NCBI RefSeq assembly: GCF_023347255.1
Contig: NZ_CP094466.1
Coordinates: 2,356,001-2,420,000 of the forward strand
Reading direction: 5' to 3'
Source of the DNA: Faecalibacterium sp. I4-3-84
GTDB taxonomy: Bacteria > Bacillota > Clostridia > Oscillospirales > Ruminococcaceae
DNA length: 64,000 nucleotides
The position numbers and the translations under genes were made by a program. Below the pieces are notes generated by a model that was not told where the DNA came from, did not search any database, and worked only from the letters and a program-made list of their open reading frames with translations. Shown here piece after piece: positions 4,931 to 61,378 of the stretch. Within the stretch, counting starts at the first letter, position 1. The number at the start of each line of letters is the position of its first letter.

Positions 4931-6613
4931 ATGGCACGAACAAAAAACAGAGGATTGCAACAGAGTTTCTCTCCCTCTTATACCGTCCGCCGCTGGCGGC
5001 TGGGCGCATACATCCGGCTCTCCAAGGAGGACTTGAAAAAGGGAAAGGACGACAGCAACAGCGTCATCAACCAGCGTGATCTGCTCAATGACTTTTACCA
5101 GAAGCATATCGGAGAATTTGAAAGTGTTTCCGAATATGTAGACGATGGACACACAGGAACGGACGCCAACCGGGAGAACTTCCAGCGGCTCCTTTCCGAT
5201 GTAATGAGCGGAAAAATTAACTGCGTGGTAGTAAAAGACCTGTCCCGCTTCGCACGAAATTATAGCGATGCCGGAAGTTTGATCGATAACCTGTTTGTTC
5301 AAATGGGTGTTCGCTTTATCAGCCTTGCTGAGAATGTGGACAGCTACAAGAACCCCGACAGCGTTTCAAATATCATCGTTCCCATTACAAACGTGATGAA
5401 CGATAATTACTGCTATCAGACTTCCAAAAAGATCCGGCAGGTATTTGATTACAAACGGCGCAACGGCCAGTATATCGGAGCATTTGCTCCTTACGGCTAT
5501 GTAAAGCACCCAAAGGACAAGCACAGGCTGATTGTTGATCCCGATGCTGCTGAAAATGTCAAACTCATTTTCACAATGCTTATTCAAGGGTCATCAAAAC
5601 GTGCTATCGCGCTGTACCTGAACGAACACGGCGTACCGAGCCCCTCGGCTTACAAGGTACAAAAGGGCTTGCCTGTTTCGACAAGAGGGTATGACGATCC
5701 TATGTGGGGAGTCCGCATGATCCACTCCATTCTTACCAATCCGACCTACACCGGGGATTTAGCCCAAGGCCGAAGCCGGGTGAAAAGCTACAAGGTACAC
5801 CAGATTGAAGCTGTTCCACGCGAGGAATGGGTGGAAGTGGCTGGAACGCATGAGGCCATTATCGACTATGAAACTTTCGACAAGGTACAGGCTCTCTTAC
5901 AGCGTGATACCCGTACTTCCCCGAAAGGCCGTGAGGTACATTTATTCAGCGGCTTTCTGAAATGTGCCGATTGCGGGCGGGCCATTACCCGATGCGTTGG
6001 CAAGAACAACAATGTATATTATTCTTGCTCAACCTACAAGAACCGTTCCCGGACAGCCTGCACCATGCACTCAATCAAGCATGAACGGCTGGAGGCCGCT
6101 GTTTTGTTCGCTGTACAGCATCAGGTACATTTGGCTGTTTCCTACTCGGAAATCGTCACGCAGATCAATTCCGCTCCAATCAAAAAAAGCCAGTCTTACC
6201 GACTGGACGATCTGATAGCTGCAAAAGAGCGGGAACTGACAAAGATAACACGCTACAAGCAATCTCTTTATCAGGACTGGAAAGACGGTGAAATCACCCA
6301 GCAGGAATACCGGGATATGAAGGCTGACTACGAACGGCAGACTTCTGATATTTCCGCGGTGCTTACCCGGCTGAACGCTGAACGCGCAGAACTGGCAAAC
6401 GGTGTGGACAACGAGCATCCTGCACTGGTAGCCTTTATGAAGTATCAGAACATTGAAGCCCTCAACCGTGAAATCTTGGTTGAACTTGTGGACTATATCA
6501 AGGTCTATGAAAACGGCAATATCAGCGTGAAATTCAAATTTGCTGACGAGCTCCGCAAGATTGCCGAGTACATTGAAATCAACACTACGGAAGATACCAC
6601 AGTAGCGGGCTAA
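4931..6613 (+). CDS. Large serine recombinase (TndX/TnpX type)
   Basis: This 560-residue site-specific recombinase should excise and insert the element. The ATG follows GGAAGGAGG. The resolvase domain (about 22-175) has catalytic Ser31 in YIRLSKED, the DDG.TGT motif and VVKDLSRFARN. The recombinase domain (about 190-300) follows, then a zinc ribbon with paired cysteines C..CGR and YSC (about 345-375), and a coiled-coil DUF4368-type C-terminus (about 425-560). Length and order match TndX/TnpX-like integrases. It is the last gene before the element junction. The frame is intact and all motifs are present, so it is probably active. Confidence 0.93.
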   Translation: MARTKNRGLQQSFSPSYTVRRWRLGAYIRLSKEDLKKGKDDSNSVINQRDLLNDFYQKHIGEFESVSEYVDDGHTGTDANRENFQRLLSDVMSGKINCVVVKDLSRFARNYSDAGSLIDNLFVQMGVRFISLAENVDSYKNPDSVSNIIVPITNVMNDNYCYQTSKKIRQVFDYKRRNGQYIGAFAPYGYVKHPKDKHRLIVDPDAAENVKLIFTMLIQGSSKRAIALYLNEHGVPSPSAYKVQKGLPVSTRGYDDPMWGVRMIHSILTNPTYTGDLAQGRSRVKSYKVHQIEAVPREEWVEVAGTHEAIIDYETFDKVQALLQRDTRTSPKGREVHLFSGFLKCADCGRAITRCVGKNNNVYYSCSTYKNRSRTACTMHSIKHERLEAAVLFAVQHQVHLAVSYSEIVTQINSAPIKKSQSYRLDDLIAAKERELTKITRYKQSLYQDWKDGEITQQEYRDMKADYERQTSDISAVLTRLNAERAELANGVDNEHPALVAFMKYQNIEALNREILVELVDYIKVYENGNISVKFKFADELRKIAEYIEINTTEDTTVAG

Positions 6614-6663
6614 CCCCCGCTACGAACCCCTTTGACAGTGTGTTTTCCTAATAGGCGCTAATC
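6614..6663. other. Right junction (attR-like) of the element
   Basis: The recombinase ends at 6613, and homology to an IS200-type tnpA begins at the CAT codon 6663. The crossover lies in these 50 bases, probably close to 6655-6663. TndX-like enzymes use a short GA core in known cases, but I cannot fix the core without the left end or the empty site. Confidence 0.5.
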
Positions 6664-6986
6664 ATATGCTTGTGTCGATACCGCCCAAACTTGCCGTAGC
6701 AGATTTCATGGGGTATCTCAAAGGGAAGAGTACACTCATGATATTCGAGCGACATGCAAACCTAAAATACAAATACGGAAGGAGAGTGTTCTGGGCGAAA
6801 GGATATTACGTAAATACAGTAGGTGGAAATGAAGCCAAGATCCGCAAATACATTCAGGAACAAGAGTTCAACGATCAGATGTGCGACCAGTTGAGCTTCA
6901 AGGAATACGAAGATCCATTCAAGAATGTAGCTGACTTCGATGATGACGATTCGCCAGAAGTGCCTACAGATAGTATAAGAAAGTAA
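6663..6986 (+). pseudogene. tnpA: IS200/IS605 tnpA, 5'-truncated by the element
   Basis: The frame reads H-MLVSIPP, then GYLKGKS..MIFERH, FWAKGYYV, TVGGNEA and IRKYIQEQ, the hallmark of Y1 (HUH) transposases of the IS200 group. The catalytic tyrosine in KYIQEQ is kept. The N-terminal third, about 65 residues, is missing. The break falls inside the HUH motif: the second histidine (CAT at 6663-6665) remains, and the codon two before it no longer encodes histidine. So the gene is inactive here. Its 5' half is predicted at the far left end of the integrated element. Confidence 0.85.
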
Positions 6987-7095: not shown

Positions 7096-7278
7096 ATGAT
7101 TTTCACGGGAGGGGGTGCAGCGGAAAACGGCATTCAGTTTGTTTGAAGCATCTGCCGGTTGGGACCCTTCCGGTGAAAAAGGGATTCCTGAAAATCCGCA
7201 GATTTTCAGGAATCCCCAATAAAAATAATTATTCCGCTAAAAATGCTCAGAGCAAAGCGGAGAGCATTCAAATGGTAA
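7096..7278. repeat. Covarying-hairpin element, locus 1 (inverted half)
   Basis: A 16-bp perfect stem, 7181-7196 with 7201-7216, closes a CGCA loop. To its left GTGAAAAA is the reverse of the family's TTTTCAC flank. To its right TTCCGCT (7232-7238) is followed by a hairpin, ATGCTC/GAGCAT (7243-7248/7262-7267), around AGAGCAAAGCGGA. The element abuts the end of the pfk gene. The left half of the pair seems replaced by the IS200 end. Confidence 0.7.
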
Positions 7279-8358
7279 TCAACCCAGACTGATGCCCATG
7301 CGGCGGGCGACGGTGAGCAGGTCGCAGTTCTCCGGCACGTTGCGGGTCTTGCCTGCAATGTCGGCCAGACGGTTCTCGGTGACATGACGGTTCACCATGG
7401 CAACGGTCACGCCGTAGCGCTCGATCTCCACCAGCTTTGCCGCATAGCTGCCGAACTGGGTGGCCAGCACACGGTCGTAGGCGCTGGGGCTGCCGCCGCG
7501 CTGCATGTGGCCCGGGATGCACACACGGGTCTCCATGCCGGTTTTTTTCTGCACGGCCTGTGCAATGCGGTTGGTGGCGGTGGTACCAAAGCCTGCCTCG
7601 GCGCGCTTTGCCATCCATTCCTTGCGCTTCATGCCGGCTTCCTCGCAGTTGATGGCACCCTCGGCCACAGCGATGATGGAGAAGTTGGAACCCTTCTTTG
7701 CGCGGCGTTCCACGGCAGAACACACACGGTCGATATCATAGGGCTGTTCCGGCAGCAGGATAATATCTGCACCGCCGGCAATGCCGGAGTACAGCGTCAG
7801 CCAGCCTGCCTTGTTGCCCATGATCTCAATGCACATCACGCGGCTGTGGCTGCCTGCGGTGGTGTGGATGCGGTCGATCACATCGGTGGCAATGTCCACG
7901 GCGGTGTGGAAGCCGAAGGTTACGTCGGTACCATAGATATCGTTATCAATGGTCTTGGGCAGGCCGATGATGTTCAGACCCTCCTGCGAGAGCAGGTTTG
8001 CGGTTTTGTGGGTGCCATTGCCGCCCAGGCACAGCAGGCAGTCCAGCTTGGCTTCCTTGTAGGTCTTTTTCATGGCGGCAACCTTATCAATGTTGTCGTC
8101 CTCCACCACACGCATCATTTTAAAGGGGGTGCGCTTGGTGCCCAGAATGGTGCCGCCCAGCGTCAGGATGCCGCGGAAATCGTCCTCGCACATCTCCTTG
8201 TAGTCGCCGTTGATCAGGCCGCTGTATCCGTTCAGGATGCCAATGATCTCCACGTTATCGCCCATGCGGGCATACAGTGCTTTTGCTACGCCGCGGATGG
8301 TGGCGTTCAGACCCGGACAGTCGCCGCCGGAGGTCAGGATTCCAACACGTTTTTTCAT
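7279..8358 (-). CDS. pfkA: 6-phosphofructokinase
   Basis: This enzyme converts fructose 6-phosphate to fructose 1,6-bisphosphate in glycolysis. The 359 residues show LTSGGDCPGLNA near the N-terminus, PKTIDND (134-140, catalytic D138), the MGN.AGW region and GHMQRGGSPSAYDR. Lys135 in PKTIDND is typical of the PPi-using and mixed clades, while G115 in the next motif is typical of ATP users. Oddly, the nucleotide motif reads GGNGT (112-116), where almost all relatives have GGDGT/S or GGDD. The missing Asp normally helps bind Mg. The gene stands alone with an AGAGGG ribosome site. The phosphoryl donor cannot be settled by eye. Confidence 0.92.
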   Translation of the reverse strand: MKKRVGILTSGGDCPGLNATIRGVAKALYARMGDNVEIIGILNGYSGLINGDYKEMCEDDFRGILTLGGTILGTKRTPFKMMRVVEDDNIDKVAAMKKTYKEAKLDCLLCLGGNGTHKTANLLSQEGLNIIGLPKTIDNDIYGTDVTFGFHTAVDIATDVIDRIHTTAGSHSRVMCIEIMGNKAGWLTLYSGIAGGADIILLPEQPYDIDRVCSAVERRAKKGSNFSIIAVAEGAINCEEAGMKRKEWMAKRAEAGFGTTATNRIAQAVQKKTGMETRVCIPGHMQRGGSPSAYDRVLATQFGSYAAKLVEIERYGVTVAMVNRHVTENRLADIAGKTRNVPENCDLLTVARRMGISLG

Positions 8359-30574: not shown

Positions 30575-31072
30575 ATGGAGATCCGCAACGCGACCATGGA
30601 CGACCTGCCCGCCATTGCCGCCGTGGAGGCAGCCTGCTTCCCGGCAGCGGAGGCTGCCACGGCAGAGGAATTTGCCGGGCGGCTGGCACACTATGCAGAC
30701 CACTTCTGGCTGCTGTTTGAGGATGGGCAGCTGGCGGCCTTTGTGGACGGCTTTTGCACCGACACGCCCGACCTGACCGATGCGATGTACGCGGACGCGT
30801 CCCTGCATGATGAAAATGGCGCATGGCAGATGATCTTTGGGGTGAACACCCTCCCGCGCTGCCGCTGCCAAGGCTACGCCGGGCTGCTGCTGCAGCGGGC
30901 CATTGCAGATGCCCGCGCACAGGGGCGCAGGGGGCTGGTGCTGACCTGCAAGGAAAAGCTGCTGCACTACTATGCAAAGTTCGGCTTTGTGAACGAGGGG
31001 GTTTCCGGCTCTACCCACGGCGGGGTGGTGTGGTATCAGATGCGGCTGCGGTTCTGCTCCGGCAGAGGCTGA
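30575..31072 (+). CDS. GNAT family N-acetyltransferase (AANAT-like)
   Basis: This 165-residue acetyltransferase has the acetyl-CoA loop in a variant form: GVNTLPRCRCQGYAG, followed by LL.RAIADARAQGRRGLVLTCKEKLLHYYAKFGFVNEG. The pattern with CKEKLL.YY resembles arylalkylamine-type N-acetyltransferases, which act on small amines. The true substrate is unknown. A GGAAAGGGG site precedes the ATG. Its stop codon lies inside the left arm of a 166-bp palindromic element. Confidence 0.8.
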   Translation: MEIRNATMDDLPAIAAVEAACFPAAEAATAEEFAGRLAHYADHFWLLFEDGQLAAFVDGFCTDTPDLTDAMYADASLHDENGAWQMIFGVNTLPRCRCQGYAGLLLQRAIADARAQGRRGLVLTCKEKLLHYYAKFGFVNEGVSGSTHGGVVWYQMRLRFCSGRG

Positions 31073-31234
31073 CTGTTCAAAAGTTCCCTATGATACATTG
31101 AGGTTTTGAACAATGAAGAAATAGTGCGCAAAAAAGCGCAGCTTTCCGTGGCTTTTGAGCCTTGAGAGAAAATAAACAACGAACACACGTTGTATCTCAC
31201 ATTGTTCAAAAGGCAGAGGGGGGTGAACAGTCAG
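31069..31234. repeat. 166-bp element with nested inverted repeats
   Basis: The outer arms CTGACTGTTCA (31069-31079) and TGAACAGTCAG (31224-31234) are perfect. The inner arms TTTTGAACAATG (about 31103-31114) and CATTGTTCAAAA (about 31200-31211) are also perfect. Inside is GCGCAAAAAAGCGC and an ACAACG...CGTTGT pair. No reading frame. It could be a MITE or a folded RNA. Confidence 0.55.
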
Positions 31235-31262
31235 GAGCCTTGCGGCTGGCAGGGGACGGCGC

Positions 31263-31297
31263 AAAAAAATCCCGGAAGCCGAAGCTTCCGGGAATCT
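31263..31297 (-). terminator. Terminator of the tRNA cluster
   Basis: CCCGGAAGC pairs with GCTTCCGGG (31271-31292). On the minus strand a run of seven T follows. Confidence 0.85.
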
Positions 31298-32206: not shown

Positions 32207-34198
32207 ATGGCAAAAAAACAGGAATATGGCAACGAGAGCATTACTTCTTTGAAGGGTGCCGACCGTGTGCGCAAGCGCCCGGCCGTTATCTTTGGCTCAG
32301 ACGGCGTGGAGGGCTGCGCCCACTCCATCTTTGAGATCGTCTCCAACTCCATCGACGAAGCCCGCGACGGCCACGGCGATACCATCAACGTGACCCGCTG
32401 TAAGGATGGCAGCGTTATCGTTGAGGACTTTGGCCGCGGTATGCCCGTGGACTGGAACAACGGCGAGGGGCGCTACAACTGGGAGCTGCTGTTCTGCGAG
32501 ATGTATGCAGGCGGCAAGTATGGCGAGGGTGAGGACAACTACGAGTTCAGCCTTGGCTTGAACGGTCTGGGCCTGTGCGCTACCCAGTATGCTTCTGCAT
32601 GGATGACCGCCGATATCTACCGTGACGGATACCACTATCACCTTGATTTTAAAAAGGGCGAGAATGTGGGCGGCCTGCAGAAGGAAGCCTACAAGGGCCG
32701 CCGCACTGGCAGCATCATTCACTGGAAGCCGGACGACGAGGTGTTCACCGACATCGATGTGCCCGGCAGCTACTATAAGGATACCCTGCGCCGTCAAGCG
32801 GTGGTCAACGCAGGCCTGACCCTGAACTTTACCGATGAAAAAGAGAAAGACCCTGCCACTGGAAAGGCGTGGTACGAGAGCTGGTGCTATGAGCACGGCA
32901 TCGCGGACTATGTGGCCGAGGTGGCAGGGGAGGATACCCTGACCCCGGTATTCAGCTGCGAGAGTGAGGCCGTGGGCCGAGACCGCGAGGATCAGCCGGA
33001 TTACAAGGTGCGCATGAGCGCGGCGTTCTGCTTCTCCAATAAGGTGCAGATGCTGGAATACTACCACAACTCTTCCTGGCTGGAGCACGGCGGCAGCCCG
33101 GAGCATGCGGTGCGCACCGCCTTTGTCTACCAGATCAACAAGTACCTGAAGGAAAAGAACCTCTATAAAAAAGGCGAGAGCGCCATCAGTTTTCAGGATG
33201 TGCAGGACTGTCTGGTGTATGTCTCGTCCAGTTTTTCCACCCGCACCAGCTACGAGAACCAGACCAAAAAGGCCATTACCAATAAGTTCGTCTCGCAGGC
33301 TATGACCGACTTCCTCAAGCATTATCTGGAAGTGTATTTTCTGGAAAAGCCGGACGAGGCCCAGAAGATCTGCCAGCAGGTGCTGGTGAACAAGCAGAGC
33401 CGTGAGCATGCGGAAAAAACGCGCCAGAGCATCAAAAAAACGCTGTCCACCCAGATCGACCTTGCCAACCGTGTGCAGAAATTCGTGGACTGCCGCACCA
33501 AGGATGCATCCCGCCGCGAGCTGTATATCGTGGAGGGCGATTCCGCTATGGGTGCGGTCAAGTCCAGCCGCGACAGTGAATATCAGGCCATCATGCCCAT
33601 CCGCGGCAAGATCCTGAACTGCCTGAAGGCAGACTATGCCCGCATCTTTAAATCGGATGTCATCGTGGACCTCATCAAGGTGATGGGCTGCGGCGTGGAG
33701 CTGGGCGGCAAACACAACAAGGAGCTGGCCACCTTCAATCTCGATAATCTGCGGTTCAATAAGATCGTCATTTGTACCGATGCCGACGTGGACGGCTACC
33801 AGATCCGCACGCTGGTGCTCACCATGCTCTACCGCCTGACCCCGACCCTGATCGAGAAGGGCTATGTGTATATCGCAGAGTCGCCGTTGTATGAAATTAC
33901 AACGAAAGACCGCACTTATTTTGCCTACACCGAGCCGGAAAAGACAGCGTTTCTGGAAGAGATCGGCGAGAAAAAATACACCATCCAGCGCTCCAAAGGT
34001 CTGGGTGAGAACGACCCTGAGATGATGTGGCTGACCACCATGAACCCGGAGAGCCGCCGCCTTATTAAAGTGATGCCCACCGATGTGGTGCAGACCGCGC
34101 AGGTGTTCGATATCCTGCTGGGTGATAACCTTGCAGGCCGCAAGGAACACATTGCGCAGCACGGCGCAGAATATCTGGACGATCTGGATGTGAGCTGA
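32207..34198 (+). CDS. parE: Topoisomerase IV subunit B-like protein (divergent)
   Basis: This 663-residue type IIA topoisomerase ATPase subunit follows GGAGGAG. The GHKL site is present in a changed form: FEIVSNSIDEA (family: EVVDNSIDEA), EDFGRGMPVD (family: DNGRGIPVD) and GLNGLGLCATQY. The Toprim parts are YIVEGDSAMGAVKSSRD, MPIRGKILN, TDADVDGYQIRTL and QRSKGLGE. The catalytic Glu and metal-binding Asp residues remain. It pairs with the parC-like gene downstream and should decatenate or relax DNA. The many departures from ParE/GyrB consensus show a distinct clade and not a defect. A housekeeping gyrAB is expected elsewhere. Confidence 0.85.
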   Translation: MAKKQEYGNESITSLKGADRVRKRPAVIFGSDGVEGCAHSIFEIVSNSIDEARDGHGDTINVTRCKDGSVIVEDFGRGMPVDWNNGEGRYNWELLFCEMYAGGKYGEGEDNYEFSLGLNGLGLCATQYASAWMTADIYRDGYHYHLDFKKGENVGGLQKEAYKGRRTGSIIHWKPDDEVFTDIDVPGSYYKDTLRRQAVVNAGLTLNFTDEKEKDPATGKAWYESWCYEHGIADYVAEVAGEDTLTPVFSCESEAVGRDREDQPDYKVRMSAAFCFSNKVQMLEYYHNSSWLEHGGSPEHAVRTAFVYQINKYLKEKNLYKKGESAISFQDVQDCLVYVSSSFSTRTSYENQTKKAITNKFVSQAMTDFLKHYLEVYFLEKPDEAQKICQQVLVNKQSREHAEKTRQSIKKTLSTQIDLANRVQKFVDCRTKDASRRELYIVEGDSAMGAVKSSRDSEYQAIMPIRGKILNCLKADYARIFKSDVIVDLIKVMGCGVELGGKHNKELATFNLDNLRFNKIVICTDADVDGYQIRTLVLTMLYRLTPTLIEKGYVYIAESPLYEITTKDRTYFAYTEPEKTAFLEEIGEKKYTIQRSKGLGENDPEMMWLTTMNPESRRLIKVMPTDVVQTAQVFDILLGDNLAGRKEHIAQHGAEYLDDLDVS

Positions 34199-34204
34199 TG
34201 ATTT

Positions 34205-34485
34205 TAAATTGCCTCCGCTTGCGCTCTGGCAATGACAGAGGTAACGTTATTTTAATATGGTGATTTGTCGCAGCCTGCGGGCTGCTCCAAATCACGTTTT
34301 CACGAAGAAGGCCCCAACGGGTCACGGCATTTTAAGGGAAAAATGCAGAAAACCGGAACGGCTTCATCTGTGAAAGAGCAGCTCAGGATGGCCTGCAGGC
34401 CATCCTGAGCTGCAAAAATAAAAAATATTTTCCGCTGAATATGGGCAGAGCGAGAGCGGCGCCCATTTAAAATCGTCAAGAGGTT
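34205..34485. repeat. Covarying-hairpin element, locus 2 (complete pair)
   Basis: The element fills the parE-parC gap. Left half: hairpin TTGCC..GGCAA with loop CCGCTTGCGCTCT, then stem GTGATTTG-TCG-CAGCC/TGCG/GGCTG-CTC-CAAATCAC (34260-34295), then TTTTCACG. Right half in inverted order: GTGAAA, a 16-bp stem around TGCA (34378-34413), TTCCGCTGA, and hairpin GGGC/GCCC around AGAGCGAGAGCGGC. Both ends carry ATTTTAAAT. The pair faces inward. Confidence 0.75.
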
Positions 34486-34490
34486 AGAAG

Positions 34491-36740
34491 ATGCCTAGAA
34501 AATCGACCAAGAAAACACTCAAGCCGGTGCGCCCGCAGCTGGGCGACGGCGTTGAAATTTTAAATGCCGGCAGTGTGCTGGAGGACCCCATCACCCGCAC
34601 GCTGGAAACCAACTATATGCCCTACGCCATGAGCGTCATCGTCAGCCGCGCGCTGCCAGAGATCGACGGCTTCAAACCGGCGCACCGCAAGCTGCTGTAC
34701 ACCATGTACGAGATGGGCCTGCTCAAGGGCGCACGCACCAAGTCTGCCAACATCGTGGGCAGCACCATGCACCTGAACCCCCACGGCGATGCCGCCATCT
34801 ACGACACCATGGTGCGCATGGGCCGCGGCAACGAGAGCCTGCTGGTGCCCTTTGTGGACAGCAAGGGCAACTTCGGCAAGGCCTACAGCCGGGATATGTC
34901 CTGCGCTGCTGCCCGTTACACGGAGGCAAAGCTCGAGGGTGTGTGCGAGGAGCTGTTCCGGGATATCGACAAGGAGACCGTGGACTTTGTGCCCAACTAC
35001 GACAGCACCACCACCGAGCCTACCCTGCTGCCGGTCACATTCCCCACCATTCTGGCCAACAACACGCTGGGTATCGCCGTCGGCATGGCCTGCAACATCT
35101 GCTCCTTCAATCTGGCAGAGCTGTGCGCCACCACCGTGGCCCTGATGAAGGACGAGCACCACGACATCTCCACCACCATGCCCGCCCCGGACTTCGTGGG
35201 CGGCGGTCAGATTTTGTACGATGAAGCGCAGATGCGTGAAATTTACGAGAACGGCCGCGGCAGCGTGAAGGTACGCGCCCGCTACAACGTGGTGCCGGGC
35301 GAAAACATGATCGAGGTCACCCAGATCCCGCCCACCACCACGGTGGAGGCCATCATGGATAAGATCGCGGAGCTGGTCAAGGCCGGTAAGGTCAAGGAGA
35401 TCAGCGACATGCGTGACGAGACCGACCTGAACGGCCTGAAGCTGACACTGGACCTCAAGCGCGGCGTGGATGCCGACAAGCTGATGGCAAAGCTGTTTAA
35501 GGCTACCCCTCTGGAAGACAGCTTCAGCGCTAACTTCAATATTCTGGTGTCCGGCCAGCCCCGCGTGATGGGTGTGCGCGAAATTCTCAAGGAGTGGACG
35601 GCCTTCCGTGTGGAGTGCGTGCGCCGCCGCACCTACTACGACCTGCACGGCAAGGAAAAGCGCCTGCACCTGCTCAAGGGTCTTGCTGCTATCCTGCTGG
35701 ACATTGACAAGGCAATCAAAATTATCCGCACCACCGAGGAAGAGACCGAAGTGGTGCCCAACCTGATGATCGGTTTTGGCATCGATGAAGTGCAGGCCGA
35801 CTATGTGGCCGAGATCAAGCTGCGTCATTTGAACCGGGAATATATCCTCAAGCGCACCAGCGAGATCGAACAGCTGGAGAAGGACATTGCCGACCTGAAC
35901 GATATCCTTGCAAAGCCCGCCCGCATCCGCCGCATCATCATCAATGAGCTGAACGATGTTGCCAAGAAGTACGGCCAGCCCCGCCGCAGCGAGATCCTGT
36001 ACGATCTGCCTGAGGAAGAGAACGGCTCCGAGGAGGAAGAAGCTCCGGATTACCCCGTGACGGTGTTCTTTACCCGCGAGGGCTACTTCAAAAAGATCCC
36101 ACCGCAGGGTCTGCGCACCGCCGGTGCCCACAAGCTGAAAGAAGGCGACGAGATCGTGCAGCAGATCGAGACCCGCAACAACGTAGAAGCGCTGTTCTTT
36201 ACCGACCGCCAGCAGGTGTACAAGGTGCGTCTGGCAGAGCTGGAGGACGGCAAGGTGGCCCAGATGGGCATTTTCATCCCGGGCCGTCTGGGCATGGACG
36301 AGGGCGAGAACGTGCTCTCCATGGTGATCACCAGCGACTACAGCGGCTATATGCTGTTCTTCTTTGCCAGCGGCAGGTGCGCAAAGATCCCGCTCAGCTC
36401 CTATGCCACCAAGCAGAACCGCCGTAAGCTGCTCAAGGCCTACTGCGACAAGGAACCGCTGGCGAAGCTCTTCTTCCTGCCGGAGGAGACCGAGCTTGCC
36501 ATCCGCACCAGTGCCAGCCGGATGCTGCTGGTTGGCACGGCGCAGATCGCCGCAAAGACCACCCGCGACAGTCAGGGCGTGGCGGTGGTCACCCTGAAAA
36601 AGAACCAGACCATCGCTTCGGTGGTGCCTGCGGACACGCTGGAGCTGGCGAACCCCCACCGCTACCGGGTGCGCAGCCTGCCCGCTACCGGTGCGCTGCT
36701 CCGCGCCGAGGACGAGGGCGAGCAGATGAGCCTGCTGTAA
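34491..36740 (+). CDS. parC: Topoisomerase IV subunit A-like protein
   Basis: This 749-residue DNA-cleaving subunit has catalytic Tyr143 in AARYTEAKL, the winged-helix segment with NPHGDAAIYD (97-105) and a coiled tower domain. The C-terminal domain (about 510-749) forms beta-pinwheel-like repeats. In the quinolone-resistance region the residue equal to E. coli GyrA Ser83 is Ala101, while the acidic residue (D105) is kept. It follows parE after the repeat element, and AGAGG precedes the ATG. Together they should form a heterotetramer. Confidence 0.9.
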   Translation: MPRKSTKKTLKPVRPQLGDGVEILNAGSVLEDPITRTLETNYMPYAMSVIVSRALPEIDGFKPAHRKLLYTMYEMGLLKGARTKSANIVGSTMHLNPHGDAAIYDTMVRMGRGNESLLVPFVDSKGNFGKAYSRDMSCAAARYTEAKLEGVCEELFRDIDKETVDFVPNYDSTTTEPTLLPVTFPTILANNTLGIAVGMACNICSFNLAELCATTVALMKDEHHDISTTMPAPDFVGGGQILYDEAQMREIYENGRGSVKVRARYNVVPGENMIEVTQIPPTTTVEAIMDKIAELVKAGKVKEISDMRDETDLNGLKLTLDLKRGVDADKLMAKLFKATPLEDSFSANFNILVSGQPRVMGVREILKEWTAFRVECVRRRTYYDLHGKEKRLHLLKGLAAILLDIDKAIKIIRTTEEETEVVPNLMIGFGIDEVQADYVAEIKLRHLNREYILKRTSEIEQLEKDIADLNDILAKPARIRRIIINELNDVAKKYGQPRRSEILYDLPEEENGSEEEEAPDYPVTVFFTREGYFKKIPPQGLRTAGAHKLKEGDEIVQQIETRNNVEALFFTDRQQVYKVRLAELEDGKVAQMGIFIPGRLGMDEGENVLSMVITSDYSGYMLFFFASGRCAKIPLSSYATKQNRRKLLKAYCDKEPLAKLFFLPEETELAIRTSASRMLLVGTAQIAAKTTRDSQGVAVVTLKKNQTIASVVPADTLELANPHRYRVRSLPATGALLRAEDEGEQMSLL

Positions 36741-36754
36741 AACGCTTTTTATTG

Positions 36755-37050
36755 AGAAATGGCTCCGCTTCGCTCTGCCATTCTTAGCGGAAGTTGATTT
36801 TAAGGATTGCAAATTGGAAAAATCTGCGGATTTTTCCAATTTGCCTTTTCACAAGAAAGGCCGCAACGGCAAACGGCATCTTGCTGCTGTCGGCTTGCAG
36901 CCGTCGCGCAGCGGAAAAATGCATTTTCCGGCAGCGACCCCACCCGTGAAAATGTGTTTGGAGCGGCCCGCAGGCCGCGACAAACACGAAAATAAAAATG
37001 GAATTTCCGCTATTATTGTCAGAGCGAAGCGGAGACAATTTTAAATCGTT
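36755..37050. repeat. Covarying-hairpin element, locus 3 (complete pair)
   Basis: Left half: hairpin ATGGC/GCCAT around TCCGCTTCGCTCT, then AGCGGAA (about 36785-36792), then a 16-bp stem with TGCG loop (36809-36844), then TTTTCAC. Right half inverted: GTGAAAAT, stem GTGTTTG-GAG-CGGCC/CGCA/GGCCG-CGA-CAAACAC (36954-36987), TTCCGCT, hairpin GTC/GAC around AGAGCGAAGCGGA, then ATTTTAAAT. It lies between parC and rlmH. Confidence 0.75.
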
Positions 37051-37055
37051 TCTAT

Positions 37056-37106
37056 ATAAAAGAGGAAACTGCATAAAAGAGGAAACTGCATAAAAGAGGA
37101 AACTGC
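37056..37106 (+). repeat. Three perfect 17-bp tandem repeats carrying the rlmH ribosome site
   Basis: ATAAAAGAGGAAACTGC occurs three times in a row (37056, 37073, 37090) and ends one base ahead of the ATG. Each unit has AGAGGA. Only the last is correctly spaced to the start. Confidence 0.8.
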
Positions 37107-37107
37107 A

Positions 37108-37593
37108 ATGCAAAACATCGACCTGATCTGTGTGGGCAAGCTGAATGCAAAATATTTCGCCGAGGGCGTAGCGGAGTACCAGAAGCGCCTTGCCGCCTTC
37201 GCGTCCTTCCGCATCATCGAGCTGCCGGAGGAAAAGATCGAGGAGAAGAACGCCTCGGATGCCGTGGTAAAAAAGGCACTGGACAAGGAGGGCAAGGCCA
37301 TCCTGTCCAACGTGCGCAAGGGTGCTGCCATCGTGGCCATGTGCATTGAAGGCAGGCAGATCTCCTCCGACGAGCTGGCGCAGTTCCTTGCCGACCGCGC
37401 AAACAGCGGGGCAGGGGATGTGGCCTTTGTGATCGGCTCGTCTCACGGCCTGTCCGATGAGGTGAAAAAGGCCGCCGCCCTCAAGTTCAGCATGGGACGC
37501 ATCACCATGCCCCACCAGCTGGCCCGCCTTGTGCTCACGGAACAGATCTACCGCGCCTGCACCATCAATGCAGGAATGAAATACCATAAATAA
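37108..37593 (+). CDS. rlmH: 23S rRNA pseudouridine-1915 N3-methyltransferase
   Basis: This 161-residue SPOUT methyltransferase modifies helix 69 of 23S rRNA in the 70S ribosome. It has the SPOUT knot signature GSSHGLSDEV and the C-terminal MPHQLARLVLTEQIYRA...YHK. Length is normal. It lies behind the triplicated ribosome-site repeat, which makes its translation start region unusual. Confidence 0.95.
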   Translation: MQNIDLICVGKLNAKYFAEGVAEYQKRLAAFASFRIIELPEEKIEEKNASDAVVKKALDKEGKAILSNVRKGAAIVAMCIEGRQISSDELAQFLADRANSGAGDVAFVIGSSHGLSDEVKKAAALKFSMGRITMPHQLARLVLTEQIYRACTINAGMKYHK

Positions 37594-56930: not shown

Positions 56931-56989
56931 TGTTTGTTGGGGATTTTTTCTTTTTGAAAAAAGCAGTGGCAGACAATGTACTCGACCCA

Positions 56990-57128
56990 TAGAGCAGCTG
57001 CTTTCGGCTGCGACCCCGCCCGTGAAAATGCAAGCCCGGAAAGTCCGCAGACTTTCCGGGCTTGTTCTATCTCAAAATATTATTCCGCTGATGATAGCCG
57101 GAGCACAGCGGAGGCGATTTAGATCGTG
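56990..57128. repeat. Covarying-hairpin element, locus 4 (inverted half)
   Basis: GACCCCGCCCGTGAAAATG is followed by a 15-bp perfect stem around CGCA (57031-57064), then TTCCGCT, then hairpin GCC/GGC around GGAGCACAGCGGA, then GATTTAGATCG. It abuts the 3' end of hflX. Confidence 0.7.
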
Positions 57129-57136
57129 TACGCCTA

Positions 57137-58402
57137 TCAGACCAGATACCCTTCAAAGCAGTGCAGGTCTTCCGTCTTGACGATGCCCTCCAGATACAGC
57201 CCGTCCTCCCGGTATTCCTCCACCTGCACGCTGCCGCGCTCCCGCATGGGGGCGGCAAGGCCCAGTTTATCGTAGGGCAGCAGCACCTTTAAGGTGTGCA
57301 CCCGGTCGCTGAGCATCTCGTCCAGCTTTGCCAGCAGGGTGTCCAGACCGTAGCCGGTCTTGGCACTGGTGAGCAGGATGTCCGGGTCAAAGCTCATGGC
57401 ACCCGGCTTATCGCACTTGTTGTAGACGGTCAGGCGGGGGATGTCCGCACAGTCCAGCCCGTCCAGAACCTCGTCCGTGACGGCCAGCTGCTCTTCCCGC
57501 TGCTCATCGCCTGCGTCTGCCACACGGATGATCACGTCCGACCATGCCGCTTCTTCCAGCGTGGACTTGAAGGCTTCCACCAGATTGTGGGGCAGGCGGG
57601 ACACAAAGCCCACCGTGTCCACCAGCAGCACCGCCATGCCGCTGGGCAGTATCAGCTTGCGGCTGGTGGGGTCCAGTGTGGCGAACAGCATGTCCGCTTC
57701 CGCTACGCTTGGGCCGCACAGAGCATTCATCAGGCTGGATTTGCCCACGTTGGTATAGCCTACAAGGCTGACCACCGGCATCCCGGTCTTGGCACGGGCC
57801 TTGCGGCTCTCGCCCCGGCGCTTTTCCATTTCGGCCAGCTTTTCGGCCAGCGCATCGATGCGGGCATGCACATGGCGGCGGTCCAGTTCCAGCTTGGTCT
57901 CACCGGCACCGCGGCGGGCGCCACCACCGCCGCCGCCGCCGCCGCCCTGACGGCTGAGCGCTTCGCCCATGCCCTGCAGACGGGGCAGGCGGTAGCGCAG
58001 CAGGGCCAGCTCGGTCTGCAGTTTGCCTTCGTTGGTGACGGCGCGGCTGCGGAAAATTTCAAGGATCAGCATGGTGCGGTCGATCACTTCCAGTCCGCCC
58101 AGCGCATTGGAGATGTTGCGGATCTGGCTGCCGGTCAGTTCACCATCAAATACGGCGCATTCCGCGCCCAGCGTTTCGGCGGCAAGGCTGGCTTCCTCCA
58201 GCTTGCCGCTGCCCAGCACGATGCCGGTCTCCGGGGTCTGGCGCTTCTGGGTCACCTGCGCCACGGCTTCCATGTGATTCGCCTCACACAGGGCGGAAAG
58301 CTCTGCAAGGCTGCGCTCGCAGTCCCACAGGCCCTGATCCAGCGCCAGCAGAATGACCTTCGTCGGGGGTGTTTCTACCAAAATATCGTAAAGTTCGCTC
58401 AA
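57137..58402 (-). CDS. hflX: GTPase HflX
   Basis: This 421-residue ribosome-associated GTPase starts at a TTG that shares TTGA with the stop of the upstream GNAT gene. The N-terminal HflX domain (about 1-190) precedes the G domain with GYTNVGKSSLMN, DTVGFV and NKCD. A poly-Gly stretch of eight (about 160-167) encoded by GGC/GGT repeats lies in the linker ahead of ARRGAGETKLELDRR. HflX splits stalled 70S ribosomes under stress. The length is normal. Confidence 0.95.
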   Translation of the reverse strand: MSELYDILVETPPTKVILLALDQGLWDCERSLAELSALCEANHMEAVAQVTQKRQTPETGIVLGSGKLEEASLAAETLGAECAVFDGELTGSQIRNISNALGGLEVIDRTMLILEIFRSRAVTNEGKLQTELALLRYRLPRLQGMGEALSRQGGGGGGGGGARRGAGETKLELDRRHVHARIDALAEKLAEMEKRRGESRKARAKTGMPVVSLVGYTNVGKSSLMNALCGPSVAEADMLFATLDPTSRKLILPSGMAVLLVDTVGFVSRLPHNLVEAFKSTLEEAAWSDVIIRVADAGDEQREEQLAVTDEVLDGLDCADIPRLTVYNKCDKPGAMSFDPDILLTSAKTGYGLDTLLAKLDEMLSDRVHTLKVLLPYDKLGLAAPMRERGSVQVEEYREDGLYLEGIVKTEDLHCFEGYLV

Positions 58403-59004: not shown

Positions 59005-59086
59005 GGCACACACCTCCCCACTTTATAAAGTATGCATAGGATAGCACAAATTTTGCGTTCCTGCAAGCGCCGCCGTGAAAAAACGC

Positions 59087-59115
59087 TTGACCGGACGGCA
59101 TTTGTGCATTAAACT
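59087..59115 (+). promoter_or_regulatory. Promoter of the methyltransferase-MTHFR gene
   Basis: TTGACC (59087-59092) and TAAACT (59110-59115) are 17 bases apart, 41 bases ahead of the ATG. The leader is too short for a SAM riboswitch. Confidence 0.55.
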
Positions 59116-59155
59116 GAAAGCCAAGCGTTTTTGTAGGAAAAAGGAGAACTCCCTC

Positions 59156-60943
59156 ATGAAGGATGTGCGTGAAATTTTAAAAAAGCGCCCGCTGCTGTTC
59201 GATGGCGGCATGGGTACATATTATAAGGCAAAGCCCGGGCAGGAATGTGAGCAGGCAAACCTGCTGGACCCGGACGGCATTTTGACCGTGCACCGCGCAT
59301 ATCTGGAAGCGGGTGCCGATGCTATCAAGACCAACACCTTCGGCCTGCCGCGTATGGCAGCAGCGCAGAACCCCATGTGGGAGGCCATGGCAGATGAAGG
59401 CTGGAAGCTGGCTGCACAGGCCGCTGCAAAGACCAGCGCTGCCGTGTTTGCCGATCTTGGCCCGGCCCCGGACACGGAATCGCTCCCGGCGGCACAGACC
59501 TATACGGCCCTTGCCGAGCGGTTTGCCGCATTGGGGGCAAAGAACTTTTTGTTTGAGACGCTGAGCAGCGATGCCGGTGTGGCCGAAGCTGCGCGGCAGA
59601 TCAAAGAAGCAGTGCCGGATGCCTTTGTGCTGGTGTCCTTTGCGGTGCTGCCGGACGGTTACACCCGTGAGGGACGGCACTGTACTCAGCTGGTGCGCAG
59701 CATGACCGCTTGCAGTGCAGTGGATGCCGTGGGCCTGAACTGCGTTTCTGCTCCCGGTGCCATGCGCACACTGGTGCGGCAACTGGGCAGAACAGAGCTG
59801 CCCCTGTCTGTCATGCCCAACGCAGGCTACCCGGTGGTCACCCGCACCCGGGTGCAGTATCAGGGCAGGCCGGAGTACTTTGCACGGGAGCTGGCCCGCC
59901 TTGCCGCCGAGGGTGTGCGCATTCTGGGCGGCTGCTGCGGCACTACGCCTGCCCACATTGCGGCCTTGCGCACGGCGCTGGATGCGCTGCCGGGGCAGCT
60001 GCCGGTGGCAGCGGCAGCGCCGGTACCCACCGCCGCAAAGCCGGAAGTGGAAACGGACGATGCCTTCCTGCGCAAGCTGAACGCAGGCAAAAAGGTGATC
60101 GCCATTGAGCTGGACAGCCCCAAGGATGCCGACCTGACCGGCTATCTGGACGGTGCACGCCGCCTGCAGGCTGCTGGTGCAGACCTTTTGACCATTGCGG
60201 ACTGTCCTATTGCCCGGGCAAGGATGGATTCCTCGCTGGTGGCCTGCCGGGTGCACCGGGAGCTGGGGCTGAACGTGCTGCCCCACATGACCTGCCGCGA
60301 CCGCAATCTGAACGCCGCCAAGGCCCTGCTGCTGGGCCTGTACGCCGAGGGCGTGCGGGAGGTGCTGGCCATCACTGGCGACCCCATCCCCACCGCAGAG
60401 CGGGACGAGGTGAAGAACGTGTACCAGTTCAACTCCCGCAAGCTGGCGCAGTACATCGTCTCGCTGGCAGGGGAGGGCCGGGAGATGCCCTCGCCCCTCA
60501 CCGTGTTCGGTGCGCTGAACCTGAACGCCCGCAACTTTGATGTGGAGCTGCGCCGCGCACAGGAAAAGCTGCAAAATGGCATGAGCGGCTTCCTTACCCA
60601 GCCGGTGCTCTCCGCACAGGCGGTGGTGAACCTGAAAAAGACCCGCGAAACGCTGGGCGAAAAGGCGAAAATTCTGGCCGGCATCATGCCGGTGGTGAGC
60701 CAGCGCAACGCCATTTTTATGGAGAACGAGGTCAACGGCATCCATGTGGACGCTGAGATCATCGAGCGTTTTGCCGGGCTGGACCGTGCGCAGGGCGAAG
60801 AGCTGGGGCTGGAAGTCTCGGTGAAGGCCGCGCAGGCTGCAGCGCCCTATGCAGACGGCTTTTACCTGATGACCCCCTTCAACCGCATCGCCCTGATGGA
60901 GCGGCTCATTGCAAGGCTGAAGGATGAAGGGATCGCGGATTGA
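59156..60943 (+). CDS. yitJ: Bifunctional homocysteine S-methyltransferase/methylenetetrahydrofolate reductase
   Basis: The ATG at 59156 follows AAAAGGAG. The 595 residues start with a zinc-type methyltransferase domain (about 1-300): DGGMGTYY, GLNCVSAPG and GGCCGTTPAHI. A MTHFR domain (about 325-595) follows: AIELDSPKDADL, HMTCRDRN, ITGDPI and FNLN-like ALNLNARN. The fusion links 5-methyl-THF formation to methionine synthesis; B. subtilis YitJ has the same layout. It is probably used together with a cobalamin-dependent MetH core elsewhere. Confidence 0.93.
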   Translation: MKDVREILKKRPLLFDGGMGTYYKAKPGQECEQANLLDPDGILTVHRAYLEAGADAIKTNTFGLPRMAAAQNPMWEAMADEGWKLAAQAAAKTSAAVFADLGPAPDTESLPAAQTYTALAERFAALGAKNFLFETLSSDAGVAEAARQIKEAVPDAFVLVSFAVLPDGYTREGRHCTQLVRSMTACSAVDAVGLNCVSAPGAMRTLVRQLGRTELPLSVMPNAGYPVVTRTRVQYQGRPEYFARELARLAAEGVRILGGCCGTTPAHIAALRTALDALPGQLPVAAAAPVPTAAKPEVETDDAFLRKLNAGKKVIAIELDSPKDADLTGYLDGARRLQAAGADLLTIADCPIARARMDSSLVACRVHRELGLNVLPHMTCRDRNLNAAKALLLGLYAEGVREVLAITGDPIPTAERDEVKNVYQFNSRKLAQYIVSLAGEGREMPSPLTVFGALNLNARNFDVELRRAQEKLQNGMSGFLTQPVLSAQAVVNLKKTRETLGEKAKILAGIMPVVSQRNAIFMENEVNGIHVDAEIIERFAGLDRAQGEELGLEVSVKAAQAAAPYADGFYLMTPFNRIALMERLIARLKDEGIAD

Positions 60944-60944
60944 A

Positions 60945-61075
60945 AATAGCCGATGCGTTTGCTCTGGCCATTGATAGCGGAAAAAATTTTTTATATTTGC
61001 GTTTGTCGTGGCCTGCGGGCCACTCCAAACGCGCTTTCACGAATAAGGCCTAAACCGTAAGATGCATCGGGATAA
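60945..61075. repeat. Covarying-hairpin element, locus 5 (forward half)
   Basis: GATGCGTTTGCTCTGGCCATT and AGCGGAAA (about 60976-60983) are a decayed first hairpin. Stem GCGTTTG-TCG-TGGCC/TGCG/GGCCA-CTC-CAAACGC (60999-61032) is followed by CTTTCACGAATAAGGCC. The internal loop TCG/CTC matches loci 2 and 3. Only the forward half is present. Confidence 0.7.
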
Positions 61076-61096
61076 ATTCTTTTGAAGAAAAAGTAA

Positions 61097-61131: not shown

Positions 61132-61378
61132 ATAAATGCGTTGAAGAAGAGTGTGTATCGCTTTTGCCATCCAGAGAGCCGGGGGCTGCTGAAAACCCGG
61201 TATGGCCCGGCGGTGTGCTGTCACTTTGGAGCAGGAGCGGTGAGCTGAAGAGCAAGCCGCTCTCGGAGCTGTCCCACGTTACCGGGGCATCAAGGGGCGC
61301 AGGATGCTCTGCGCAATTTGGGTGGTACCGCGGTTATTACAGCCGTCCCATGGAACGTTCCGTGGGACGGCTTTTTTC
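61132..61378 (+). promoter_or_regulatory. T-box riboswitch of valS (Val specifier)
   Basis: Stem I has AGAGAGCCGGG, and a GTC codon at 61220-61222 precedes ACTTTGGAGC, the usual place of the specifier. The T-box sequence TTTGGGTGGTACCGCGG spans 61317-61333. A terminator follows: AGCCGTCCCA with TGGGACGGCT (61341-61371) and a T run. Uncharged tRNA-Val should pair with the GTC codon and with TGG of the T-box and allow read-through. Confidence 0.93.

Follow-up and report, generated by a model that had tools for sequence, protein, structure and literature searches.

Dispersed two-hairpin intergenic elements with constant loops and exchangeable paired stems in one lineage of Faecalibacterium

The window, which is the whole stretch of 64,000 nucleotides of Faecalibacterium sp. 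I4-3-84 (genome G000) that was analysed, carries the genes for the B and A subunits of a type IIA topoisomerase, whose scores lie below the curated cut-offs that separate gyrase from topoisomerase IV. The B-subunit gene (called at 32207-34198) stands directly ahead of a two-armed intergenic element. Its left arm (34198-34340, + strand; 124.6 bits with the covariance model R1 described below; fold z-score -3.8) comprises a small hairpin (34208-34233), AGAGGT, a spacer, a long hairpin (34260-34295), TTTTCAC (34297-34303) and a tail. The right arm is its inverted repeat (34333-34476, - strand; 131.9 bits; z -6.3) and contains a long hairpin (34378-34413) that is a perfect palindrome with a TGCA tip, AGCGGAA (34430-34436, TTCCGCT on the + strand) and a small hairpin (34441-34466). 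Behind the A-subunit gene (called at 34491-36740) there is another left arm (36748-36889, + strand; inverted repeat; 132.1 bits; z -3.6), the long hairpin of which (36809-36844) has a perfect 16-bp stem, and a right arm (36909-37049, - strand; long hairpin 36954-36987; 130.2 bits; z -5.1) precedes rlmH (37108-37593); the orthologous site of the latter arm in genome G030 has a different stem. The terminal inverted repeats at 34196-34478 and 36751-37046 have arms of 38 and 45 nt that are 79-80% complementary. Three more arms were located in the window. One lies at the 3' end of the phosphofructokinase gene (arm 7136-7277, - strand; long hairpin 7181-7216; 129.1 bits; z -6.8; gene called at 7279-8358, - strand), a solo arm lies at the 3' end of hflX (arm 56985-57128, - strand; long hairpin 57031-57064; 122.1 bits; z -5.7; gene called at 57137-58402, - strand), and a second solo arm lies behind a homocysteine S-methyltransferase/MTHFR gene (arm 60936-61077, + strand; long hairpin 60999-61032; 104.5 bits; gene called at 59075-60943), upstream of a T-box leader (61132-61353). 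All seven arms fold 1.9-6.8 standard deviations below shuffled sequences, the weakest (z -1.9) being that at 60936.

The initial annotation had described five loci built on one plan, and this was confirmed, the loci holding seven arms of a single family. Read from the gene inwards, an arm consists of the outer end (G)ACGATTTAAAAT, a small hairpin with a stem of about 5-6 bp and the loop TCCGCTTCGCTCT, AGCGGAA, an AT-rich spacer of about 18-22 nt, a long hairpin with a 16-bp stem and a TGCG loop closed by a C-G pair, TTTT(T)CAC, and a semi-conserved tail (gggaagGGncgtaacggnaaacggcat). Each arm is about 140 nt long with its two hairpins, and two inward-facing arms form a unit of mostly about 260-400 bp. 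The 16+4+16 geometry was found in 113 of 167 long hairpins, and the loop read TGCG in 230 of 244 arms detected with the requirement C-N-G-Y-R-G at the loop. Several details of the earlier description had to be amended. AGCGGAA belongs to the plan, although the 34198 arm departs from it, and the small-hairpin loop is constant in the plan but altered in the 60936 arm. Perfect pairing holds for four of the seven long stems, whereas those at 34260-34295, 36954-36987 and 60999-61032 have a 2x2 internal loop; this loop, formerly written TCG/CTC, is real and consists of 5'-TC-3' opposite 5'-TC-3'. TGCG or CGCA loops are general, with the exception of the TGCA of hairpin 34378-34413. Finally, the locus at 7096-7278 contains one arm and, of a former left-hand partner, just the inner tail (7100-7135, + strand), recognized by comparison with G000 2318780-2319700 and with the IS200 copies L304 and L305.

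Model R1 was built from 18 own-genome arms, and since all seven window arms were among these training sequences, their scores are high by construction; independent support for the family comes from the other own-genome matches. The outer motif TTCCGCT N4-12 GAGC NNN GCGG occurred four times in the window and never in 100 shuffles, and with one additional base it occurred 13 times in the own genome, where a reversed control pattern gave none. The covariance-model search beyond the window revealed many copies elsewhere, so the family is not limited to a few copies at this place. The own genome gave at least 88 matches at E up to 0.001 (best 150 of 1121 candidates scored), with at least 73 strong arms of at least 43.8 bits, the seven of the window included; the 15 matches of 27-41 bits that were dropped were in many cases partial or on the opposite strand of a known hairpin, and some were weak full-length copies. 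The inward-facing pairs and halves noticed in the window were likewise borne out, with 19 inward-facing pairs and 35 solos among the strong arms of G000 and no outward-facing neighbouring arms within 700 bp in this genome.

Eight of the 31 Faecalibacterium genomes proved to be carriers. With the best 150 candidates scored per genome, so that the counts are lower bounds, at least 109 matches were obtained in G028 (the same species as G000), 140 in G030, 146 in G009, 119 in G012, 140 in G014, 150 in G018 and 145 in G029. An exact-motif scan listed F. prausnitzii ATCC 27768, CNCM I 4541 and APC923/51-1 and Faecalibacterium sp. I4-1-79 as carriers. Model tests in seven of the 23 other genomes of the genus gave three matches in G016, two each in G003 and G015 and none in G001, G002, G017 and G021. 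A BLAST comparison of all 31 genomes with the window element and its flanking genes (best 20 candidates scored per genome) produced at least 23-31 matches in the same eight carriers and 0-2 in the remaining 23, where those listed fell only in the flanking genes. Across 297 sampled family genomes, searched with stricter filters and with the best 10 candidates scored per genome, only G000 and G016 exceeded 40 bits, and nine others reached 26-33 bits. Just one of 17 exact-motif loci outside Faecalibacterium matched the model, at 15.1 bits. Carriage by phages was also considered and rejected, as the one viral contig with the exact outer motif had no model match at E up to 0.1. In the genomes searched, the element is confined to one Faecalibacterium lineage. 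In genome G016, where the family is nearly absent, one element with two arms (L149) shares 96% identity in its outer flank with a site of G000, which suggests that it was acquired by recombination transfer.

The pairing of the stems, which the earlier reading had taken as covarying, was tested against controls, and paired changes were found far above them. In 70 distinct own-genome arms, whose alignment leans towards the structure because it was fitted to the model, 96.9% of 1542 cells paired. Double-change cells numbered 452, as compared with 115.9 (sd 11.0) in column shuffles, none of 500 of which reached 452, and with 53-97 when the partner was slid by 1-3 columns. In this set 22 of the 23 modelled pairs changed on both sides somewhere and eleven cells were one-sided standard changes; among the modelled long-stem pairs, 14 of 15 changed on both sides within one genome. 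When arms were detected without the use of pairing, the 14 pairs closest to the loop were all Watson-Crick in 185 of 244, and the others had one G-U (10), one mismatch (10), two mismatches (30) or other states (nine, of which three had 6-9 mismatches). The TC/TC internal loop defines a recurring subfamily: of the 30 arms in which exactly two pairs are mismatched, 28 have it. Covariation extends to the small hairpin, where among 214 arms one pair is G-C in 106 cases and C-G in 91. The loop of this hairpin, TCCGCT, is complementary to AGCGGA, a possible pseudoknot, but no covariation was found between the two. The absence of one-sided changes in the first 18 arms had raised the idea of a mechanism acting on DNA only, which was dropped because G-U pairs and mismatches occur at similar rates in the larger sets.

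Mapping of the arms relative to gene ends, based on uncurated codon-usage gene calls, indicated that about two thirds follow the 3' end of a gene. In G000, 10 of the pairs lie between codirectional, 8 between convergent and 1 between divergent genes, and among 32 solos (three of the 35 had no flanking data and were left out of this count) 26 have the outer gene's 3' end in front of them, and the other 6 face a 5' end. A wider set, with one arm per locus group over all fetched loci and with both arms of a pair able to count, put 98 of 143 arms after the 3' end of a gene and the remaining 45 next to a 5' end, 50 of the 143 being between convergent and 7 between divergent genes. With the arm start set at 85 nt before the tetraloop, the 98 3'-end arms begin at a median position 1 nt short of the last base of the stop codon (quartiles -7, +13) and thus usually within about 15 nt of it, and the 45 5'-end arms lie at a median of 65 nt from the start codon. 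Codirectional solos had the arm at the 3' end in 18 of 24 cases in G000 and in 37 cases against 22 in the wider set (37/59; p = 0.067), where the solo calls were loose. Poorer gene calls agreed in direction (3':5' ratios of 151:93, and of 92:55 with 97 unclear), as did another count in which orthologues were retained (168:70, 6 far).

Comparison of stems between sites pointed to copying. There were 149 distinct 5' half-stems in 149 locus groups, and 23 of these occurred in more than one group, although a few represent the same site, since locus groups split when an element is flipped or a flank is exchanged. Identity with a stem at another site was found for 62 of 188 non-redundant stems (0 in column-shuffled controls), and 50 of the 188 were one step from a stem elsewhere (1.6 in the controls). 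Copying thus links the stems of different sites. Orthologous sites were then classified through their outer flanks in 121 comparisons, which are not independent because one site can appear in three genome pairs: 75 were nearly identical (at most 2 differences per side), 44 were replaced on both sides (4-15 positions each) and 2 were between. At flank identities of at least 97%, 30 were nearly identical and 7 replaced. In the unreplaced class, made up of 74 distinct pairs with flanks 95.2% identical on average, differences affected 1.3-1.4% of stem positions, a figure lowered by the definition of the class through few stem differences, 3.4% of the spacer, 4.1% of the small hairpin and 5.7% of the tail; no stem change at all was seen in 54 of the 75 nearly identical comparisons. 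The changed pairs of this class were 12 Watson-Crick/G-U, 10 Watson-Crick/mismatch and 3 double Watson-Crick changes. Age is evident at some sites: one stem is shared unaltered by G000, G028 and G012, with identity to G012 at 88%. That unreplaced stems hardly vary speaks for constraint, and to this extent the earlier claim of selection on structure was supported; stem copying and the replacement of whole hairpins, which keeps pairing by itself, qualify it.

Replaced pairs with flanks at least 90% identical numbered 28. Some kept the outer half, the small hairpin being identical in L111/L234 and L126/L111, some kept the inner tail (L266/L072, L097/L112), and further pairs were altered throughout. 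Such a mixture of retained parts would be expected of recombination or conversion whose tracts end at varying points. Between G000 and G028 two elements have switched orientation within their flanks: in L057/L244 the inversion covers 178 bp at 97.2% and 62 bp at 91.9% identity between flanks of 99.0 and 91.0%, and in L069/L246 it covers 183 bp at 96.2%, with one flank at 97.0% and the other different. L145/L281 is a further candidate.

Dispersal together with clade restriction implies that the element has spread. No clean empty site or target duplication was found at the orthologous sites, including three extra site searches in which the sites were occupied or rearranged. G012 lacks the element between the topoisomerase genes and its flanks there have diverged, and in other absences the site was filled by other repeats or hairpins. 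An autonomous version between facing arms was sought and discarded: inter-arm intervals of 350-4900 bp contained no transposase among 7 scanned ORFs; besides ORFs that matched no Pfam family, they carried a NUDIX gene and host genes for a histidine kinase, a solute-binding protein and a tRNA synthetase. The NUDIX-domain gene, between two inward-facing arms at G000 1981309-1982549 (L067), is possibly cargo. IS200 was likewise rejected as mobiliser, because the ends of the IS200-like copies L304 and L305 are unrelated to the element and two carriers lack Y1 genes: Y1 (PF01797) was present in six of the eight carriers, in some just as fragments, and in five of the 23 other genus genomes, including non-carriers such as G002, and it was absent from the one-contig carriers G028 and G018.

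Other sequences have entered copies of the element or adjoin them. Two IS200-type Y1 fragments (G000 2319064-2319255 and 2362663-2362863, the latter being the Y1_Tnp fragment at 6663-6863 of the window), about 43 kb apart, each stand beside half an arm pair; a large serine recombinase with Resolvase, Recombinase and zinc-ribbon domains is found at the inner edge, in the window region 4931-6863. IS200 seems to use TTTTCAC as insertion target, and the partner arm at 7100-7135 was presumably cut there by an IS200-type insertion. The arrangement would fit an IS200 that entered TTTTCAC and later received an integrating element of about 43 kb. An intergenic repeat of about 115 bp was found inside the small-hairpin loop of nine arms by signature, among them arms at L079, L081, L083, L085, L128, L183 and L270, and in L270 the repeat is itself interrupted by a third insert. 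Another repeat of about 95 bp occupies the tip of the long hairpin in five arms (L005, L126, L173, L234, L244), with stem on both sides. Further repeat families are present at the same intergenic sites or at element centres in other strains (CCTCTCCGTC...CTGAGAGGG; AACTCCCCCAGTC...GGAGTT; TTCTCTTTTGCGTGCCAAAAGAGAACC), at L098, L102, L103, L111, L113, L129 and L004, together with a G012 stretch in L083. At window 31056-31276, beside a tRNA cluster, G028 has about 14 kb extra relative to G000, with an arm at the edge.

Three features point to RNA, namely the way arms are oriented towards genes, a C(UGCG)G loop that lies on the transcribed strand, and the T-tract at the inner side. UNCG-type loops such as C(UGCG)G are stable in RNA. 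The T-tracts are short, since of 244 arms 237 have 4-5 T and 7 have 3 T in the 8 nt that follow the stem, and TTTCAC followed 178 of 192 hairpins found without the use of this motif. Conservation extends over the CAC and about 30 nt further, neither of which a terminator requires, and a consensus terminator scan of 33900-37300 listed none of the four long hairpins, giving 6 other sites against 4.6 expected. G-U pairs are not clearly preferred over mismatches in unreplaced stems, so selection at the RNA level is not singled out. At three orthologous positions, by our own reading, one genome has the element and another an ordinary terminator-like hairpin with a short T-tract (L136 against L113/L147, L125 against L177, L188 against L136). 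In 15 of the relatives read, the alignments of the two topoisomerase subunit genes end only 20-71 bp apart; the element sits between these genes, and strong termination at this place would need a downstream promoter. The element probably acts as a movable stop signal for transcription.

The earlier statement that no such family had been described agrees with Rfam and the open-access literature, within their limits. In the window Rfam gave nine matches, one T-box and eight tRNAs, and none to the element; in 34150-37100 at E up to 1 it gave two microRNA families far below their gathering scores, and no description was found in the open-access literature. PMC8040213 reports 3161 candidate structured RNAs from human microbiomes, of which 250 are palindromic, and the family may be one of these candidates. 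Intrinsic terminators share with the element a stable hairpin with a tetraloop, a T-tract, a place mostly at gene 3' ends in the orientation of the gene and a free stem sequence, but the element also has the conserved small hairpin and AGCGGAA upstream, a fixed stem length, a near-constant TGCG loop, the conserved CAC and tail, repeat dispersal and a short T-tract. Like MITEs it is short, non-coding and intergenic, with terminal inverted repeats and clade-specific amplification; neither target duplication nor parental transposon was found in the sites and inter-arm intervals read, and, unlike in MITEs, its stems turn over while pairing is kept. Like the element, REP-type repeats avoid divergent regions and serve as insertion targets; their stem sequence is conserved within one genome, though published families also vary. 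In the present family the stem is the variable part, within a genome (14 of 15 long-stem pairs) and between orthologous sites. In contrast to REPs, the arm measures about 140 nt with two hairpins and lacks a consistent Y1 association, and no GTAG/CGTC tag was found at the foot of the long hairpin (18 aligned arms and the consensus of 192 hairpins), where the AT-rich spacer and TTTTCAC stand; ATCGTC can be read on the opposite strand of the outer end, but at a distance of some nt from the small hairpin. REPs, BIMEs and REPINs resemble the element in being extragenic palindromes present as inverted doublets and singlets, in their high copy number and in strain-specific amplification, while stems, loops and tails are heterogeneous within CGTC families and the spacers of REPINs show compensatory changes (PMC3733652 and PMC3116915). 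The stems of CGTC REPs are apparently of 8-9 bp (PMC3733652), against 16 bp here. Of the REP features tested, the family shows inverted doublets with constrained spacing and lacks the tag, a RAYT linked to it in all carriers and a conserved stem. In the uptake-sequence terminators of Neisseria the repeated word forms the stem, whereas in the element the stem varies and the loops are constant. Both are dispersed repeats tied to recombination, inverted DNA uptake sequences being described as forming terminators (PMC2397512). We regard the family as a new one, built like a REP/MITE doublet and probably working as paired terminators, with the unusual property that stems are exchangeable while loops and geometry are fixed.

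An explanation that we judge about as likely to be right as wrong is that of a clade-specific, high-copy, REP/MITE-like non-coding repeat which supplies inward-facing terminators or 3'-end hairpins and has diversified by hairpin exchange. As a transcript leaves a gene and enters an arm, the small hairpin would fold first and the 16-bp hairpin with its C(UGCG)G cap second, and at the UUUU(U)CAC that follows the arm would end transcription or at least fix and protect the 3' end of the mRNA. The element would thereby be a ready-made bidirectional gene punctuation, able to spread behind stop codons at little cost. Ectopic conversion or recombination that breaks off near the constant blocks would let copies exchange segments and so replace whole hairpins, and the element can flip in place; such exchange would keep pairing while scrambling stem sequence, and mismatched stems would be removed by selection. 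This explanation draws on the covariation with its controls, the copy number, the restriction to eight of 31 genomes, the gene-end placement, the polarity, the turnover and the inversions; against it stand the short T-tracts, the miss in the terminator scan, the conserved CAC and tail and the 45 of 143 arms that face a 5' end. A variant that we hold to be unlikely treats the element as mobile punctuation defined by loops and geometry, with stems as cassettes swapped as paired wholes by a dedicated exchange or inversion at the constant loops. The loops acting in the exchange would be those into which other repeats insert, and terminators alike in structure and distinct in sequence would avoid long homology and yet stay one mobile family.

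There is a modest chance that the element is a selfish, REPIN-like one, in which the hairpin matters as single-stranded DNA, an HUH/Y1 transposase copies arm pairs, and gene ends are merely the sites of least harm. The fixed hairpin geometry, the conserved DNA beyond TTTTCAC and the inverted doublets with peaked spacing (centres of inward-pair hairpins 100-199 nt apart in 64 of 86, a count from overlapping loci in which orthologues recur) are in favour, and REPINs are described as inverted doublets in whose spacers compensatory changes are common (PMC3116915). The missing GTAG tag, the distribution of Y1, the one HUH family searched for, in carriers and non-carriers and the unrelated ends of the IS200-like copies argue against such an element. 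Inverted ends, intergenic dispersal and clade-limited amplification would also be expected of a classical MITE of a DDE transposon, whose terminal inverted repeats would start with GACGATTTAAAAT and whose hairpins would be passengers or shielding terminators; this appears improbable, as the loci read and the 7 inter-arm ORFs yielded no target duplication, clean empty site or full-length relative, and a MITE alone leaves near-invariant loops with different paired stems unexplained. Least probable of all, in our judgement, is a non-mobile structured 3'-UTR RNA belonging to each gene, a terminator with an upstream hairpin or pseudoknot, evolving by ordinary compensatory substitution. The abutment of arms on stop codons, some stems unchanged at flank identities of 80-88%, the complementarity of TCCGCT and AGCGGA and the three double Watson-Crick changes in unreplaced stems would suit it. 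Nevertheless, 10 of the 19 pairs place a right arm before the 5' end of a codirectional gene, sister genomes are nearly devoid of the element, identical stems recur at unrelated sites, elements are inverted, and the said complementarity shows no covariation.

Faecalibacterium is a major human gut commensal. If the arms of this repeat terminate transcription, a single repeat family would set the 3' ends of dozens of genes in one lineage of the genus, among them, in the window, the genes for the two topoisomerase subunits, hflX, pfk and the methyltransferase/MTHFR gene. Since some copies mark inversions, nested insertions and changed flanks, genome comparisons within this species group should account for them. 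The family also offers a natural experiment in which paired structure is kept while sequence turns over, and because close genomes contain both near-frozen and wholly replaced stems, the tempo and route of structure-preserving change are measurable.
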